Source: Prochlorococcus marinus str. MIT 0918 (GTDB lineage: Bacteria; Cyanobacteriota; Cyanobacteriia; PCC-6307; Cyanobiaceae). Taken from it: DNA of 64,000 bases. The position numbers and the translations under genes were made by a program. This document shows positions 21,750 through 27,694 of the stretch, in pieces. Location: positions 1,262,764 through 1,326,763 of the forward strand of contig NZ_CP114780.1 in assembly GCF_027359415.1 (NCBI RefSeq), read 5' to 3'. The notes beneath the pieces are model-generated. The model worked only from the letters and a program-made list of their open reading frames with translations. It searched no databases and was not told where the DNA came from. How positions within the stretch are numbered: position 1 is the first letter of the stretch; each line of letters begins with the position of its first letter.

Positions 21750-23336
21750 ATGCTTGATTCTCAGCTTGAAATCCAACGTAAACCAGCAATTGTTATTCTT
21801 GATTTTGGCTCTCAGTACTCTGAGTTAATAGCAAGACGAATACGGGAGATTGAAGTTTATTCTGTTGTGCTTGGATATAACACATCTGTAGATGAGCTTC
21901 GTGAATTAGCTCCTAGTGGAATTATTTTGAGTGGTGGCCCCAGTTCTGTTTATGACAAGGGCGCACCTTTGTCTGATCCTGCTATTTGGAATTTGAATAT
22001 ACCTGTGTTGGGAGTTTGTTATGGTATGCAAGTTATGGTTCAACAGTTAGGTGGTCTTGTCGGAGCAGCTGTTGGAAAGGCGGAATATGGTAAAGCACCT
22101 TTACATGTTGATGATCCTACCGAACTATTAACTAATGTCGAAAATGGTTCGACTATGTGGATGAGTCATGGAGATTCAGTACAGCAGCTTCCAGATGGCT
22201 TTGTTCGATTAGCACACACTTCTAATACGCCGGATGCAGCAATAGCTTTTCATGATCGAAATTTTTATGGTGTTCAGTTTCATCCTGAGGTTGTTCACTC
22301 GACTCATGGCATGAGAATGCTAAGAAATTTTGTATATAACATTTGTCATTGTCAGCCTGAGTGGACTACCGATGCTTTTATTGATGAAGCTATTCAGAAA
22401 GTACAAGATCAAGTAGGTAAGAAAAGAGTATTACTGGCTTTATCAGGTGGGGTTGATTCTTCTGCTTTAGCTTTTCTTTTAAAGAAAGCTATTGGTGACC
22501 AACTGACATGTATGTTTATTGATCAAGGTTTCATGCGTAAAGGCGAGCCAGAGTTTTTAATGGATTTTTTTGATAAAAAGTTTCATATTAATGTTCAATA
22601 TATTAATGCAAGAGAACGCTTTGTTTCTAAGTTAAAAGGAATTATAGACCCTGAGGTAAAAAGAAAGATTATAGGAACTGAATTTATACGAGTTTTTGAA
22701 GAAGAAAGTTTGCGTTTAGGACCTTTTGATTATTTAGCGCAAGGTACTTTGTATCCTGATGTTATAGAAAGTTCTGGTACAAACATTGACCCAAAGACAG
22801 GTGAAAGAATTGCAGTAAAAATTAAGAGTCATCATAATGTTGGTGGTTTACCTAAAGATTTGCAATTTAAATTAGTTGAACCATTGAGAACATTATTTAA
22901 AGATGAAGTTAGAAAAGTAGGTAGAAGTTTAGGTTTGCCAGAAGAGATTGTACGCCGTCACCCTTTTCCTGGGCCAGGATTAGCAATACGTATTTTAGGA
23001 GAAGTAACGGATGAAAAACTGAACTGCCTTCGAGATGCCGATTTTATTGTAAGAGAGGAAATTACGAATGCTGGTTTATATCATGATATATGGCAAGCTT
23101 TTGCTGTTTTATTACCTGTTCGTTCAGTTGGAGTGATGGGTGATCAACGAACTTATGCATGGCCAATTGTTTTAAGATGTGTTTCCAGTGAAGATGGAAT
23201 GACGGCAGATTGGTCTCGTTTACCTAATATTCTATTAGAAAAAATTTCTAATAGAATTGTTAATGAAGTGAAAGGGGTAAACAGAGTTGTTTTAGATATT
23301 ACTAGTAAACCTCCTGGCACTATTGAGTGGGAATGA
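21750..23336 (+). CDS. guaA: GMP synthase (glutamine-hydrolysing)
   Basis: Converts XMP to GMP. Class I glutaminase domain (GVCYGMQVM with nucleophile cysteine; FHPEVVHS), ATP-pyrophosphatase loop [16 protein letters not shown] near residue 230, then the dimerisation domain with [19 protein letters not shown] and [15 protein letters not shown], ending PPGTIEWE. 528 residues, complete. Its last codons are part of an attachment-site repeat that recurs at 25977, so the 3' end of guaA has served as an integration site. Confidence 0.97.
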
Positions 23337-23478
23337 CAATGACTACTAAAAGGTAGTTATAGATTAAAAGAGTTACTTCACCGCGGAATCTTTTCAATTT
23401 TGAAGTGACAGAGTGACAATGGATTTCAGGTAGGCACTTCACCGTGACTTCACCGTGGGAAGGTTTGAGTGTCTCTAC
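23317..23478 (+). repeat. Attachment-type repeat, left copy (guaA 3' end)
   Basis: GCACTATTGAGTGGGA (23317-23332) is identical to 25977-25992. After eight diverged bases, GACTACTAAAAGGTAG (23341) matches 26001 and the alignment stays gapless to about 23446, then resumes after an 11-base offset to GAGTGTCTCTAC (23467; 26116). The first 20 bases encode the guaA C-terminus TIEWE and stop. The 11-base offset equals one extra ACTTCACCGTG unit in this copy. Confidence 0.85.
23375..23457 (+). repeat. ACTTCACCGTG 11-base repeats, left set
   Basis: ACTTCACCGCG at 23375 (one mismatch), then two perfect head-to-tail ACTTCACCGTG units at 23436-23446 and 23447-23457. The 61-base spacing from the first to the second repeat is identical in the right copy of the attachment region. 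Short direct repeats at fixed positions beside a core site are the pattern of integrase arm-type sites. A small CTACG/CGTAG hairpin follows at about 23475-23491. Confidence 0.75.
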
Positions 23479-23573
23479 GGAGAAATCGTAGATAGTCTGT
23501 TTTCTCTACACTTGTGATTTAATTTTGCAGATTCAGTTGCTATAAATTTACTAACGATTTCTCTACTTAAAAA

Positions 23574-23873
23574 TTACGCAGCATCGTCATTAATTTGATG
23601 TTCAACCAATTCCCATCCATTACTCAATAACTCAAACCAAGTTTCATTGGCATCTTCTAGTGCCATTGTTCGTGTGTTCTTGATCTGCGTGGGTATGCCT
23701 TCAGCGGTGGAATGCCAAAGTTGAGTAATGACTTTCGGCATCCGCATAAGGGACTTTGGATCTCTAATGAAAAACAACACCAACTTTTTCTCTGGATTAA
23801 TTAACCATCCTGATGGGGTAGGGACTGCTCTCCTGACTGGATCAACCATTCGTCTGCAAATAATTCTGGACAT
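23574..23873 (-). CDS. DUF1651-like small protein
   Basis: 99 residues. The pattern GWLINPEKKLVLFFIRDPKS ... GIPTQIKNTRTM ... ANETWFELLSNGWELVE matches what I remember of DUF1651, a family of small proteins in marine Synechococcus and Prochlorococcus: GWL, F.RDPKS, G.P, M..A...W..L...GW. Function unknown. ATG at 23873 lies only 2 bases after the U-tract of the first small RNA, so the RNA terminator sits in what would be its 5' leader. Cargo gene of unit A. Confidence 0.65.
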   Translation of the reverse strand: MSRIICRRMVDPVRRAVPTPSGWLINPEKKLVLFFIRDPKSLMRMPKVITQLWHSTAEGIPTQIKNTRTMALEDANETWFELLSNGWELVEHQINDDAA

Positions 23874-23874
23874 G

Positions 23875-23934
23875 AAAAAGCACCATGCTCACAGGTGCCT
23901 TATCAATTAGGACTAATTATGTGAAGAGTGTCCT
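23875..23934 (-). ncRNA. Small RNA with Yfr1/Yfr10-like motif, copy 1
   Basis: Minus-strand unit of about 60 nt, inferred from three related copies in this island. Read 5'-3' it has a hairpin AGGAC/GTCCT whose loop carries ACACTCTTCACAT (one mismatch from copies 2 and 3; 23919-23931 on the plus strand), then a terminator stem GGCACC/GGTGC (about 23880-23899) and a run of T. A TATATT box (23941-23946, plus strand AATATA) lies about 7 bases before the presumed start. The most diverged of the three copies. Start and end are estimates. Confidence 0.5.
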
Positions 23935-24016
23935 AATACAAATATACTACTGCTCAGTTTTTTATTGGTCAAGCGTTTGAGGATAATTTCTATTGAGGCA
24001 TTTCTCATCAAGACAC

Positions 24017-24107
24017 AAAAAAACCTGCCCGAAGCAGGTCCTTTTGGAGATCTTAAGCAAGTGTTTCCTAGTTTCCACTGCTGGAGGATCTCAACTCCTC
24101 ACAACGG
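24017..24107 (-). ncRNA. Yfr2-like small RNA, unit A
   Basis: Minus-strand RNA of about 90 nt. Read 5'-3': GTTGTGAGGAGTTGAGATCCTCC (a hairpin arm plus the GAGGAGT motif, plus-strand 24094-24100), GGAAACA (plus-strand TGTTTCC at 24062-24068), then terminator stem CCTGC/GCAGG with loop TTCGG (24024-24038) and seven T (24017-24023). As I remember the cyanobacterial Yfr2 family, it is defined by GGAAACA in a loop and by a segment complementary to Yfr1. A CATATT box precedes the estimated start. Conserved with unit B at 27128-27219. Confidence 0.65.
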
Positions 24108-24159
24108 AAATATGCCACATGTTCTTCAAAAGTGCGAGAAATTATCTAAAAGCACATAA

Positions 24160-24179
24160 AACTGTCACATGTGCCAGTT
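24160..24179. repeat. CACATGTG inverted repeat between the two RNA units, unit A
   Basis: AACTG (24160-24164) / CAGTT (24175-24179) enclose the palindrome CACATGTG (24166-24173). On the minus strand it is followed by TTTTATG, so it might act as a terminator or a binding site. Unit B has a longer, nearly perfect version at 27266-27299 in the same place, showing that the feature is maintained. Confidence 0.5.
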
Positions 24180-24200
24180 ATAGGTCCCGAAAAATTAGAC

Positions 24201-24260
24201 AAAAAAAAGAGCGCCCTTAACTAGCAGCGCTCTATTGGACAATGATGTGAGGAGTGTCCT
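24201..24260 (-). ncRNA. Small RNA with Yfr1/Yfr10-like motif, copy 2
   Basis: About 60 nt on the minus strand. 5' hairpin GGACA/TGTCC with loop carrying CTCCTCACAT (plus-strand ATGTGAGGAG at 24245-24254), then terminator stem AGAGCGC (24208-24214)/GCGCTCT (24227-24233) and eight T (24201-24208). A TAGAAA box (plus-strand TTTCTA at 24266-24271) lies about 7 bases upstream of the presumed start; copy 3 has TAGAAC at the same spacing. ACTCCTCACA is perfectly complementary over 10 bases to TGTGAGGAGT of the neighbouring Yfr2-like RNA. Confidence 0.6.
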
Positions 24261-24375
24261 TATCTTTTCTACTCCTGTTAAGTGTCTTTTGTCATTTTCA
24301 ATAAGACAAATGGTGATTTTGAAGCAAAATAAATTGATGATCAAATTGCCATAAAGACTTTTGGCGACTGCTGAG

Positions 24376-24454
24376 GGTATATAAAAGCACAATATTTTAT
24401 ACCTATGGAGATGGACTGATATAACTGGTATCTTAAGGTATAGAAACATGGTAT
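24376..24454 (+). promoter_or_regulatory. Repeated GGTAT sites upstream of the recombinase
   Basis: Direct GGTAT at 24376, 24427, 24437 and 24450 and an inverted ATACC at 24399-24403, most extended by A/T (GGTATATAAAA, GGTATAGAAA, GGTATAAAA). The first and the inverted copy make an imperfect dyad. The cluster ends 42 bases before the recombinase ATG. Resolvase-family genes often have their crossover and operator subsites directly upstream, so this is a candidate recombination and autoregulatory site. No promoter is assigned with confidence. Confidence 0.45.
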
Positions 24455-24496
24455 AAAAATGATTTATTATACGGTCATAGATTTGGAGGCAAACCA

Positions 24497-25078
24497 ATGG
24501 CGTTATATGGATATTGGAGGTGCTCAACCAACCTTCAGGATCAAGAGCGTCAGGTGCTTGGTCTTAAGGAAGAGGGTGTTCCTGCAAAAAATATTTTTGG
24601 AGACAAGATCACGGGGACAAGCAACTATGGAGATAGGGAAGAACTATCAAAGTGTCTAGATTTACTTGAACCGAACGATCTTTTGATCCTTGAGGACATG
24701 ACCCGTCTTGGGAGAACAATGGTCACGATGTTGGTTGAGGTGAATAACCTTATTGAGAGAGGCGTTTATATAAAAACGCTTGATGGTCGTCTTGATACCT
24801 CACTTATGAATGATGAGATTGTGAGGCTGATCGTTGGAGTTATGGGATATGCAGCAGAGTGCGAACTAAGGAATATCAAACACAGAACTTCAGAAGGAAG
24901 AGCAGTTGCAAAAAGTAGAGGAGTGAAGTTTGGAAGAAAGCGTCAGTACGACAAATTCCAGATTGAAGAAATTATGGATAAGCGAAAACAAGGACTTGGG
25001 TATGGTTCTATTGCCAAGTCATTGGGCATGAAGAAATCTACAGTACAGATGATTGTTCAAAGGGAGGTAGCAGCATGA
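24497..25078 (+). CDS. Serine recombinase (resolvase/invertase family)
   Basis: 193 residues. N-terminal catalytic domain with YGYWRCSTNLQDQERQ (nucleophile serine at 10, preceding arginine at 8), LEDMTRLGRT (conserved R..R), and the E-helix region LIVGVMGYAAECELRNIKHRTSEGRAVAKSRG. The C-terminal helix-turn-helix is YGSIAKSLGMKKSTVQMIVQR. It is the small resolvase/invertase class, not a large phage-type integrase. The ATG at 24497 has a good GGAGG at 24485-24489. It overlaps the next gene by ATGA, starting a five-gene operon. Whether it mobilises this element is inference. Confidence 0.9.
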   Translation: MALYGYWRCSTNLQDQERQVLGLKEEGVPAKNIFGDKITGTSNYGDREELSKCLDLLEPNDLLILEDMTRLGRTMVTMLVEVNNLIERGVYIKTLDGRLDTSLMNDEIVRLIVGVMGYAAECELRNIKHRTSEGRAVAKSRGVKFGRKRQYDKFQIEEIMDKRKQGLGYGSIAKSLGMKKSTVQMIVQREVAA

Positions 25079-25278
25079 CTAGAAAAAATAATTATTCAGG
25101 TGGATTATCTAATTACATTGTTTTGAAGGAAGAGAAGGAAGTTATTTTTTATTTGCATAATCCCTATCCAGATTGCTTGGAAATTCCAGCAATAATGAAG
25201 CAAAGGTTTCCTGATGATTACAAGAGCATCGTTACAAGCGACTTAGATGAATTTAAGAAGTATGGGGAGAAAGCGTGA
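25075..25278 (+). CDS. Small protein of the recombinase operon, function unknown
   Basis: 67 residues, beginning MTRKNNYSGGLSNYIVLKEE and ending DLDEFKKYGEKA. No known domain seen; mixed charged and aromatic composition, no membrane segment. ATG shares ATGA with the recombinase stop, and its own stop shares GTGA with the next start, which argues strongly for translation. No copy of this gene is visible in unit B. Confidence 0.6.
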   Translation: MTRKNNYSGGLSNYIVLKEEKEVIFYLHNPYPDCLEIPAIMKQRFPDDYKSIVTSDLDEFKKYGEKA

Positions 25279-25451
25279 GTACTGATTGGCAAGACACCTC
25301 ATGGCAAGAAGAGTTCTTAGACATGAAGGCACATAAACCAGAAGACGTGAAATTGCTCATGGAGGGACCAAGAGGTTTTTTGGATGCAATGAAACTTGGT
25401 TCTCTTCATGAGGAATACATACGATTGAAAAAGAGGCAAAGCAATGAATGA
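25275..25451 (+). CDS. Small WQDTSWQEEF protein, copy A
   Basis: 58 residues from GTG at 25275, overlapping the previous stop by 4 bases. It begins MSTDWQDTSWQEEFLD and contains EDVKLLMEGPRGFLDA and LHEEYIRLKKR. A close paralogue lies in unit B at 27524-27694; most differences are conservative, so both copies have been under protein-level selection. No known family recognised. It overlaps the next gene by 8 bases. Confidence 0.65.
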   Translation: MSTDWQDTSWQEEFLDMKAHKPEDVKLLMEGPRGFLDAMKLGSLHEEYIRLKKRQSNE

Positions 25452-25707
25452 AATCAATTGGAGAGAAGAATTATTGGATTCGGCAAAGTTCAATAAGAAG
25501 GAAGAAAACTTGTTGAGACATGGTGCAAAGTCATTGGCACAGAGTTGGCACTTAGGTGCTCTGTACATACGCTGGAAGAAGTTGAAAGGGTATAGAGAAT
25601 CTCCGACTCCTAATTGCCAAAGTTCATTTCTTGAATGGGAGCATCGACTTGCCAAGGGCGACTTTTATATCCTTAATGAAAAGGACTTCTCTTATCCAGA
25701 CTGGTAA
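25444..25707 (+). CDS. Small protein of the recombinase operon, function unknown
   Basis: 87 residues, starting MNEINWREELLDSAKF, with HGAKSLAQSWHLGALYIRWKKLKGY in the middle. Rich in Trp, Lys and Glu; no signal, membrane segment or known motif seen. ATG at 25444 overlaps the preceding gene by 8 bases. A decayed copy with stop codons and deletions follows the paralogous gene in unit B (27703-27853), so the gene order was duplicated with it. Confidence 0.6.
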   Translation: MNEINWREELLDSAKFNKKEENLLRHGAKSLAQSWHLGALYIRWKKLKGYRESPTPNCQSSFLEWEHRLAKGDFYILNEKDFSYPDW

Positions 25708-25713
25708 AAACGT

Positions 25714-25857
25714 ATGCAGTTAATTGAACAGCACAAGAAATTTATTGCTTGGTACCAAGAGAAACTTGGTTTGTCCGATTATGGATTGCTTTGGTTTGTG
25801 TTTTTTAAAGGCGTTGTTCTCACTCTGATCATTGAGCGATTACTCTTTCATTCTTGA
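25714..25857 (+). CDS. Tiny membrane-anchored protein closing the operon
   Basis: 47 residues: a charged N-terminus (MQLIEQHKKFIAWYQEKLG) and a C-terminal hydrophobic helix (YGLLWFVFFKGVVLTLIIERLLF). ATG at 25714, six bases after the previous stop, so probably the last gene of the same operon. Tail-anchored layout. No homology recognised. Small membrane proteins of this size are common in phage and island DNA, but no function can be assigned. Confidence 0.5.
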   Translation: MQLIEQHKKFIAWYQEKLGLSDYGLLWFVFFKGVVLTLIIERLLFHS

Positions 25858-25895
25858 GGTTGCTATAACTATTGATTGGAATGCTGCCAGAAAGC

Positions 25896-25917
25896 ACTTC
25901 ACCGTGACTTCACCGTG
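25896..25917 (+). repeat. ACTTCACCGTG tandem pair near the right end of unit A
   Basis: Two perfect head-to-tail 11-base units, at 25896-25906 and 25907-25917, the same tandem arrangement as at 23436-23457. They lie about 60 bases before the second guaA-derived repeat (25977). Together with the copies on its other side (26035, 26096), the core site is flanked by repeats on both sides, as at an integrase attachment site. Confidence 0.75.
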
Positions 25918-25976
25918 CTATTATTAAAGAAATAAACCCTGTTTATGACTGCGTTTTTGCCCCCTATTATTACCAA

Positions 25977-26127
25977 GCACTATTGAGTGGGAGTAGTATT
26001 GACTACTAAAAGGTAGGTATAGATTAAAATATATACTTCACCGTGAGACCTTTTCAAAATTGAAGTGACAGATTGACAAGAGATCTCAGGTAGGTACTTC
26101 ACCGTGGAACGTTGTGAGTGTCTCTAC
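25977..26127 (+). repeat. Attachment-type repeat, second guaA 3' end
   Basis: Same sequence as at 23317 with the features described there: GCACTATTGAGTGGGA, then GACTACTAAAAGGTAG at 26001. It still reads TIEWE followed by a stop in the guaA frame, but with GAG TAG instead of GAA TGA. ACTTCACCGTG stands at 26035-26045 and 26096-26106. The synonymous change suggests that the two copies came from different guaA genes. Confidence 0.85.
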
Positions 26128-26314: not shown

Positions 26315-27118
26315 ATGAATGAATTTCGTCTACGAATCTATGAGCAGATAATTAATAAAACGCCTGGTGGTAGAACCTCCTTTTTTAACAAAGTCTGTGG
26401 GGTTACTATTTTTATTTCGATTTGCTTTGCAGTCATAGTTACTGAAAATTCAATCGATTATCAATTTGGTGATCAGATAGACCTATTAGATTGGATTGTT
26501 GGGGCTTTATTTTGTGTTGAATATCTTTGTCGTTTATGGGTTGCTCCTCTTGAAGGGAAATATGGCAAAGGTTGGAAAGGGATTTTGCGTTACATGGTTT
26601 CGCCAATGGCAATTATTGACATCATTGCCATTATTCCATCGTTTATAGGCGTTAGAGCAGAATTAAAAATTTTGAGGATTATTCGTCTGTTGAGAATTTT
26701 GAAAATTGGCCGAAGTGAAAAATTCAAACAAAGTATCTTTCATTTTAATTATGCACTTCGCTCAAAGAGTCAGGAACTACAAATATCCACCTTGTATACA
26801 GTTTTGCTTTTGTTGATAAGCAGTACTTTTATGTATCTTGCTGAATCATCAGTTCAACCTGAATTATTGGGGTCAATCCCTAGATGTCTTTGGTGGTCAA
26901 TTACGACTGTTAGTGCGGTTGGTTATGGAGATTCAATTCCAGTTACAGCGATTGGAAAAACTATTGCATCGATAACTTCACTTATGGGTATTGCTGCAAT
27001 AGCAATACCTACTGGAATACTTGCATCAGGATTTAGTGAATCAATTGGTGTACAAGATAAGAATCAAAAGGAATTAAATCAAAATGATGTTCCAATGACT
27101 GAATTTAATTCCAATTAA
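26315..27118 (+). CDS. Voltage-gated potassium channel (Kv type)
   Basis: 267 residues, six membrane helices and a pore. S1-S3 occupy about 25-120; S4 is RAELKILRIIRLLRILKIGR with arginines every third residue, a voltage sensor. The pore reads WWSITTVSAVGYGDSIPVT: the filter is AVGYGD where most K+ channels have TVGYGD. A short polar C-terminus follows and no cytoplasmic RCK domain is seen. ATG at 26315 is chosen over the GTG at 26312. As island cargo it may affect membrane potential or K+ balance; homologues exist as resident genes elsewhere. Confidence 0.9.
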   Translation: MNEFRLRIYEQIINKTPGGRTSFFNKVCGVTIFISICFAVIVTENSIDYQFGDQIDLLDWIVGALFCVEYLCRLWVAPLEGKYGKGWKGILRYMVSPMAIIDIIAIIPSFIGVRAELKILRIIRLLRILKIGRSEKFKQSIFHFNYALRSKSQELQISTLYTVLLLLISSTFMYLAESSVQPELLGSIPRCLWWSITTVSAVGYGDSIPVTAIGKTIASITSLMGIAAIAIPTGILASGFSESIGVQDKNQKELNQNDVPMTEFNSN

Positions 27119-27127
27119 ATAAAGCAT

Positions 27128-27219
27128 AAAAAAGCCTTCCTAAAAGAAAGGTCCTTTTGGAGATCTTGAGTAAGTGTTTCTTTGTTTCGACGGTTAGAGG
27201 ATCACAACTCCTCGCAGGG
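27128..27219 (-). ncRNA. Yfr2-like small RNA, unit B
   Basis: Minus-strand RNA of about 92 nt, homologous to 24017-24107. Read 5'-3': TGCGAGGAGTTGTGATCCTC, then CGAAACAAAGAAACACTTACTC (the GGAAACA of unit A has become AGAAACA), AAGATCTCCAAAAGGA, and a terminator CCTTTC/GGAAGG (27135-27140, 27146-27151) with six T. The terminator stem differs from unit A but is restored by paired changes, which supports a real RNA structure. CATAGT precedes the estimated start. It also lies where the plus-strand channel transcript should end. Confidence 0.6.
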
Positions 27220-27265
27220 AGAGACTATGCCACATGGATATTTAAAAGCTAGGAATTAGACAAAA

Positions 27266-27299
27266 CAAGCAAAATTCTCACATGTGACAGTTTTGCTTG
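27266..27299. repeat. Long CACATGTG inverted repeat, unit B
   Basis: CAAGCAAAA at the left pairs with TTTTGCTTG at the right, and the arms continue inward to the palindrome TCACATGTGA with one mismatch and one G-T pair: about 16 paired bases with almost no loop. On the minus strand it is followed by TTTTG. Same position as the shorter repeat at 24160-24179. Confidence 0.6.
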
Positions 27300-27314
27300 C
27301 TAAGTAATTTAGAT

Positions 27315-27373
27315 AAAAAAAGAGCGCCCTCAATGAGTAGCGCTCGATAGGATAATTGTGTGAGGAGTGTCCT
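27315..27373 (-). ncRNA. Small RNA with Yfr1/Yfr10-like motif, copy 3
   Basis: About 59 nt, homologous to copy 2. Read 5'-3': AGGACACTCCTCACACAATT, with ACTCCTCACAC matching the Yfr1 ultraconserved motif as I remember it (plus-strand GTGTGAGGAGT at 27358-27368); a closing stem AGGACA/TATCCT; then terminator GAGCGC (27322-27327)/GCGCTC (27340-27345) and seven T. TAGAAC box at plus-strand 27380-27385, with the same spacing as copy 2. Confidence 0.6.
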
Positions 27374-27523
27374 ATTTCTGTTCTACTCCTTCCAAGGTTT
27401 ATTTGTCACATGTTTAATGAAAAACTCATTTTTATGTTTGATTTGACTTGCTTTTACTTTGGTGAGCTGTAGAAATAAAAGATCTATTCTTCTTAAGATT
27501 ATGGACAGGAAGGCATTCGAAGC

Positions 27524-27694
27524 ATGAGTACAAATTGGCAAGACACTTCGTGGCAAGAAGAGTTTTTAGATATGAAGGCTCATACCCCTGAGGACGTGAA
27601 ATTGTTAATTGAAGGACCAAAAGGTTTTATGGATGCATGGAAACTGGGTTTTCTTCATCAGGAATACAAGCGTTTAAAAAAAGAGGTTTTTTAA
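27524..27694 (+). CDS. Small WQDTSWQEEF protein, copy B
   Basis: 56 residues from ATG at 27524, starting MSTNWQDTSWQEEFLD; EDVKLLIEGPKGFMDAWKLGFLHQEYKRLKK aligns without gaps to the copy at 25275. It is the only intact survivor of the operon in unit B. Function unknown. AGGA precedes the start by about 14 bases, so ribosome binding is unclear. Confidence 0.55.
   Translation: MSTNWQDTSWQEEFLDMKAHTPEDVKLLIEGPKGFMDAWKLGFLHQEYKRLKKEVF

Follow-up and report, generated by a model that had tools for sequence, protein, structure and literature searches.

The 2.66-kb cassette that follows guaA in Prochlorococcus marinus str. MIT 0918, here called unit A, is probably a mobile element carrying a transcribed Yfr10-Yfr2 pair that raises the dose of the host's own pair of sponge RNAs. 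The host has a 1.79-Mb genome and belongs to the SS120-type low-light group of Prochlorococcus. Unit A lies in a stretch of 64,000 nucleotides that was analysed as a whole (the window), and is followed by a second cassette, unit B (Table 1). The evidence read from the DNA consists of family membership, predicted fold, terminators, promoter elements, a 10-nt complementarity between the two RNAs, and a variable cassette context. It suggests that unit A probably holds a real, functional copy of a known small RNA module. The Yfr10-Yfr2 pair itself is already known, and its carriage on a small, position-variable cassette is new within the literature searched.

Table 1. Features of the guaA island, numbered from the first letter of the window.
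Feature	Position	Strand	Evidence or remark
guaA (GMP synthase)	21750-23336	plus	ORF; its 3' end serves as attachment site
att core, left end of unit A (guaA C-terminus GTIEWE*)	23319-23336	plus	ACTATTGAGTGGGA; recurs at cassette junctions
Left arm repeat ACTTCACCGTG, two copies	23436-23457	plus	further 1-mismatch copy at 23375
DUF1651 gene	23574-23861	minus	Pfam PF07864, E 1.6e-23
Yfr10-like leader of DUF1651	23866-23943	minus	CTCTTCACA-loop hairpin and terminator-like hairpin; R1 E 9.4e-5
Yfr2 of unit A	24017-24108	minus	Rfam match and GC-rich terminator; alignment A2
Palindrome AACTGGCACATGTGACAGTT, candidate GntR (CGRE1) operator	24160-24179	minus	80 nt upstream of Yfr2 AGGAG, 0 mismatches
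Yfr10 of unit A	24197-24266	minus	R1 70.8 bits, E 1.3e-19
Yfr10 promoter block TGACAAAAG...GGAGTAGAAA	24267-24294	minus	common to chromosomal copies in other clades
Serine resolvase/invertase family recombinase, 193 aa	24497-25078	plus	PF00239, E 3.2e-23
Small ORF, 67 aa, no assigned function	25075-25278	plus	99% nt identical in G008
Small ORF, ~58 aa, no assigned function	25275-25451	plus	diverged copy at 27520-27681
Small ORF, 87 aa, no assigned function	25444-25707	plus	ORF list
Right arm repeat ACTTCACCGTG, two copies	25896-25917	plus	repeat search
att core, right end of unit A and left end of unit B	25979-25996	plus	repeat D2, 85% over 130 nt
Ion channel gene (Kch-like) of unit B	26315-27118	plus	PF00520, E 2.4e-22
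Degenerate Yfr2 of unit B	27127-27221	minus	under Rfam detection; conserved columns broken
Operator-like palindrome of unit B AACTGTCACATGTGAGAATT	27273-27292	minus	2 mismatches, same spacing
Yfr10 of unit B	27310-27379	minus	R1 83.1 bits, E 1.8e-23

The guaA cassette

Unit A (23319-25996) lies between copies of the guaA 3' end, has 11-bp repeats inside both ends, and contains the DUF1651 gene, the RNAs, a serine resolvase, and small ORFs. The guaA gene ends in ACTATTGAGTGGGAATGA, and its core is repeated at 25979; the same core marks cassette junctions in the MIT 0918 genome and in relatives. The gene end is restored at the insertion and duplicated at the far boundary, and occupancy varies among relatives, as expected of a site-specific element integrated at guaA. 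In G008, guaA is followed first by a different cassette, which has TTTGTCACGGG repeats and a TPR/methyltransferase-like gene, and then by a core, the unit A homologue, a second core, and another cassette. Unit A comes second behind guaA there, and first in MIT 0918 and G011. Other cassettes occupy guaA in SS120, G004, G016, and G029, several of them with other arm repeats and cargo. Only 375 nt separate guaA from the next gene in G012, and longer cassette arrays are present in single-cell genomes. The original prediction had called the element mobile, and these variable neighbours and positions at guaA support it.

The arm repeat ACTTCACCGTG has seven matches, all within the island, where 0.34 are expected. 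The paired repeat occurs in seven stretches among the genome contigs, all of them Prochlorococcus. The viral contigs searched contain neither this pair nor an LL-type Yfr2 core, and the RNA block and DUF1651 have no match among phage records; on these searches a phage origin of the cassette is rejected.

The serine resolvase of unit A is small, and it is absent or deleted in sister cassettes. The single tyrosine recombinase match of the MIT 0918 genome lies at G000:C1:1752153-1752569, far from guaA. Nearly every SS120-type genome has a weak-scoring tyrosine recombinase of ~390 aa elsewhere, and a role for it as helper of the guaA cassettes is speculation. An ORF of G013 (L044:11519-11992) resembles by eye the C-terminal fragment of a tyrosine recombinase, and adjoins a DUF1651-Yfr2-Yfr10 module at a site other than guaA. 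The low-light guaA arrays (23319-25996 of the window; L043, L136, L137, L139) consist of tandem cassettes of 1-3 kb with the same core and differing 11-bp arm repeats, in an integron-like layout. Their cargo includes TPR proteins and methyltransferase-like, HNH nuclease-like, and small lipoprotein-like products.

The tycheposons of Prochlorococcus, which use tRNA genes and tyrosine recombinases, are likewise cargo-bearing elements in genomic islands. Genomic islands and ICEs such as GIsul2 and ICERspD18B reportedly share guaA as integration site (PMC9376610, PMC7775301). In contrast, the guaA elements of Prochlorococcus are very small (1-3 kb) and tandem, have different arm repeats, and show no integrase in any guaA cassette read.

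The guaA gene of MIT 0918 is 78-80% identical in nucleotides to that of G008 or G011, whereas the ORFs in the right half of unit A are 96-100% identical to those of the same genomes. The exception is the resolvase gene, which is 98.8% identical in G008 and mostly deleted in G011. This difference in identity points to transfer between species. The left half of unit A is more divergent, and within it the three RNA blocks differ by ~4% between species, against ~13% for the neighbouring non-RNA sequence (Fisher p 8e-5 and 2.5e-5). The divergence relative to G008 changes sharply at 24323-24497, from 85-98% identity in the left half to 98-100% in the right-half ORFs. This step near 24.3-24.5 kb suggests recombination inside unit A.

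The Yfr2 RNAs

The Yfr2-like RNA proposed on the minus strand of unit A is real. It matches Rfam RF01701 (Cyano-1/Yfr2) at 24043-24108 with 53 bits and E 2.3e-6, above the curated cut-off of 41 bits, and agrees with the conserved columns in the GGAAAC(A)-type motifs of the first stem-loop and the 5' GAGGAG. RNAalifold gives a weak signal on the Yfr2 alignment, probably because the register shifts between high-light and low-light forms.

The corresponding stretch of unit B has CGAAACA and AGAAACA where GGAAACA is expected, and departs from otherwise conserved alignment columns. It escapes Rfam even at E<=5, lies outside RF01701 by score, and looks like a decaying copy. Its 5' end can pair with the Yfr1 motif with one mismatch (TGCGAGGAGT). 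Both units had been proposed to carry the RNA pair; this is correct for unit A and for the Yfr10 of unit B, which is intact and has a higher score than that of unit A, and fails for the degenerate Yfr2 of unit B. Unit B is probably an older, decaying cassette that kept a good Yfr10 and whose Yfr2 is broken. Kch-like ion-channel genes recur beside Yfr10-Yfr2 pairs at different loci of different genomes (26315-27118 of the window; L053, L057, L132), including G009 and G013.

The Yfr10 RNAs

The small RNA upstream of Yfr2 was originally described as a Yfr1-motif RNA. It carries the ACUCCUCACA motif of Yfr1, which in Yfr1 itself is single-stranded between two stem-loops. In the predicted fold of the unit A RNA, on the contrary, ACTCCTCACA lies inside a hairpin loop, followed by a strong terminator of its own, just upstream of Yfr2. 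This is the arrangement of Yfr10; Yfr1 is ruled out, and the RNA is reassigned to Yfr10 by structure and by the E value obtained with covariance model R1. Chance would give 0.10 occurrences of the motif ACTCCTCACA in the window; three are present, one of them being the complement of the 5' end of Yfr2.

The Rfam Yfr10 model (RF02362, cut-off 43 bits) gives 29.5 bits for unit B and 32.9 for the DUF1651 leader, and the unit A Yfr10 is not among the RF02362 matches listed. The Rfam comparison proposed earlier is thus positive for the Yfr2 model in unit A only, and below cut-off throughout for the Yfr10 model. The host's own conserved Yfr10 copy reaches only 24 bits, so the Rfam model fits this clade poorly, and R1 was therefore built. 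Its training set consisted of nine Yfr10 copies from outside the guaA island. Covariation was assessed with the structure given, in place of the RNAalifold approach used on Yfr2; 97.6% of the cells are paired in the training set, with 9 double-sided changes, and none of 500 shuffles is as high. The structural covariation that the original prediction called for is present among these Yfr10 copies.

The MIT 0918 genome contains three full Yfr10 genes by R1, two of them inside the guaA island, and an exact motif search finds no canonical Yfr1 in it. SS120 has been published as lacking a canonical Yfr1. A further exact ACTCCTCACA at G000:C1:902347-902356 (L061), near small ORFs resembling hli genes, has no Yfr10 fold by R1 and could be a target or a chance occurrence.

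Pairing between the RNAs

The unit A RNAs were said to pair over 10 contiguous bases, and the complementarity of TGTGAGGAGT and ACTCCTCACA is indeed exact. The duplex prediction that had been proposed gives a binding energy of -8.3 kcal/mol for Yfr10 and Yfr2 of unit A, against -2.3 for shuffles. For cross-pairs between the unit A RNAs and their host partners Yfr2 and Yfr10, the energies are -8.8 and -10.5 kcal/mol, and for the published MED4 pair -13.3 in the same calculation. The z-scores are modest (-2 to -3), and that of the MED4 pair is only -3.2. The element RNAs are thus predicted to pair with the host partners about as well as with each other.

The tandem arrangement in other genomes

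A Yfr1-type motif lies within 200 nt upstream on the same strand in 33 of 46 Yfr2 loci, downstream in 3, and antisense in none; the loci are mutually related, and the counts are not independent. The tandem order was published for high-light strains, and it is found in low-light clades as well, NATL-type genomes among them. It is the usual Prochlorococcus arrangement and not peculiar to the guaA element. An unpaired Yfr2 (61.8 bits) occurs in G016 at L049:7135-7224, flanked by the last att core and the gene that follows guaA. The comparison includes G002, which we take to be SS120, and G180, presumably MED4. The Yfr2 positions in G180 agree with the MED4 coordinates of PMC2518516.

MED4 has the tandems Yfr10-Yfr2, Yfr12-Yfr4, and Yfr18-Yfr5, with the Yfr1-motif RNA directly upstream (Steglich 2008, PMC2518516; Lambrecht 2019, PMC6778093). 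Its Yfr10-Yfr2 lies in a genomic island, like that of unit A, and has a common precursor (PMC2518516). Yfr2 binds Yfr1 and Yfr10 and lifts their action, and these RNAs are tied to hundreds of genes in MED4 (PMC6778093). The network on which the original prediction drew is correct. Like the MED4 tandems, unit A has its Yfr1-motif RNA immediately upstream of a same-strand Yfr2, with separate terminators and complementary motifs, and a palindrome, which in MED4 lies ~80 nt upstream of yfr2 and yfr4. It differs in belonging to a low-light SS120-type lineage, and in being a distinct cassette, bounded by guaA ends, that varies in position and has cargo of its own. In addition, the 5' end of its Yfr2 matches the Yfr1 motif over 10 nt, and the bulge described for MED4 is absent.

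Promoter elements and candidate operator

The palindrome AACTGKCACATGTGACAGTT recurs across clades in many Yfr2 copies, 77-84 nt upstream of their AGGAG. It has 0 mismatches at -80 in unit A, 2 at -80 in unit B, 1 at -81 in MED4 yfr2, and 2 at -83 in MED4 yfr4, scored with a consensus derived partly from the same sequences. Among the four MED4 Yfr2 genes, it is absent at yfr3 and yfr5. Its presence at exactly two of the four fits the report that two MED4 Yfr2 homologs are regulated by the GntR-family protein PMM1637 (PMC6778093). The MIT 0918 genome encodes one GntR-domain protein, at C1:1148436, and the host core Yfr2 has a palindrome relative shorter by one base, AACTGGCACTGTGCCAGTT, at the same place. 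By analogy with MED4, the host's GntR-family regulator may control the unit A Yfr2 through this candidate operator. The block TGACAAAAG...GGAGTAGAAA upstream of Yfr10 is common to both units, and is less exact in unit B.

Interpretation

Unit A would be a small mobile cassette that has no integrase and is inserted at the guaA 3' end; its minus strand provides a complete extra Yfr10-operator-Yfr2 module. We infer that both RNAs are transcribed, each from its own promoter, with Yfr2 controlled, as in MED4, by the host's GntR-family regulator. The exposed Yfr10 loop would pair with the 5' end of Yfr2 over 10 nt. Since the element and host versions share their motifs, the cassette would raise the dose of the sponge pair and shift the set-point of the network already present in the host; it would not act on a separate target. 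The original prediction left a choice between interfering with that network and plugging into it. Plugging in is better supported than interfering, because of the MED4-like palindrome spacing, the conservation above the flanks, and the predicted pairing with host partners.

As the same RNA pairs also occur outside guaA, the cassette may merely have picked one up. The pair would then be a passive passenger, captured when the cassette formed beside a chromosomal Yfr10-Yfr2 locus, with no particular role and with copies that decay. The broken Yfr2 of unit B agrees with this, as does the ease of capture of a pair common at many loci in relatives. However, the unit A RNAs and promoter blocks are kept while their flanks diverge, and the Yfr10 of unit B outscores that of unit A, so that a passenger is rather unlikely. 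It is very improbable that the main use of the repeated RNA modules is to provide homology for recombination between islands, and not to regulate the host. Near-identical copies do occur at different loci of one genome, such as two in G009, and the unequal divergence of the halves of unit A suggests recombination; yet homology needs neither a fixed operator spacing nor compensatory changes in hairpins.

The DUF1651 leader contains a third Yfr1-like motif, at 23867-23940, which the original prediction had missed. The start of DUF1651 is placed inside the listed ORF, because an upstream in-frame ATG meets a stop in relatives. The leader comprises a promoter-like sequence, a motif-loop hairpin, and a terminator-like hairpin, all kept in the unit A relatives. 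DUF1651 genes respond to phage infection (PMC5490813), and the leader is matched by R1, which together with the conserved CTCCTCAC-loop architecture suggests a possible Yfr2-responsive leader. An element-specific role would follow, in which Yfr2 binds the leader loop, relieves or imposes termination, and ties the host's light/nitrogen small RNA network to a gene from a phage-responsive family. This role is improbable. The motif CTCCTCAC is intact in G003, G008, G011, and G013, but is mutated (CTCTTCAC) in MIT 0918, whose leader with CTCTTCACA has a weakened pairing (-5.0 kcal/mol, z -1.6). Moreover, none of 25 other DUF1651 loci checked has a Yfr1-like motif upstream, and a general feature of DUF1651 leaders is ruled out.

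The set-point reading of unit A can be extended, tentatively and with considerable doubt, to guaA as an integron-like array of trans-mobilised cassettes in low-light Prochlorococcus. Some of these would deliver a host-type Yfr10-Yfr2 pair under the host GntR operator, together with DUF1651 behind a Yfr2-sensitive leader. The dose of a central small RNA network, and its wiring, would then be open to horizontal exchange in a lineage that has lost Yfr1.

Protein regulators are few in Prochlorococcus, which is also difficult to manipulate genetically. The cassette could have more weight in MIT 0918, where the guaA island holds two of the three full Yfr10 genes, than in MED4. If such cassettes carry working copies, the dose of regulatory RNA differs between strains through horizontal transfer, and these natural differences can be used for testing what the Yfr RNAs do. 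Movable DNA may thus alter the dose of one of the main RNA regulators of the cell.
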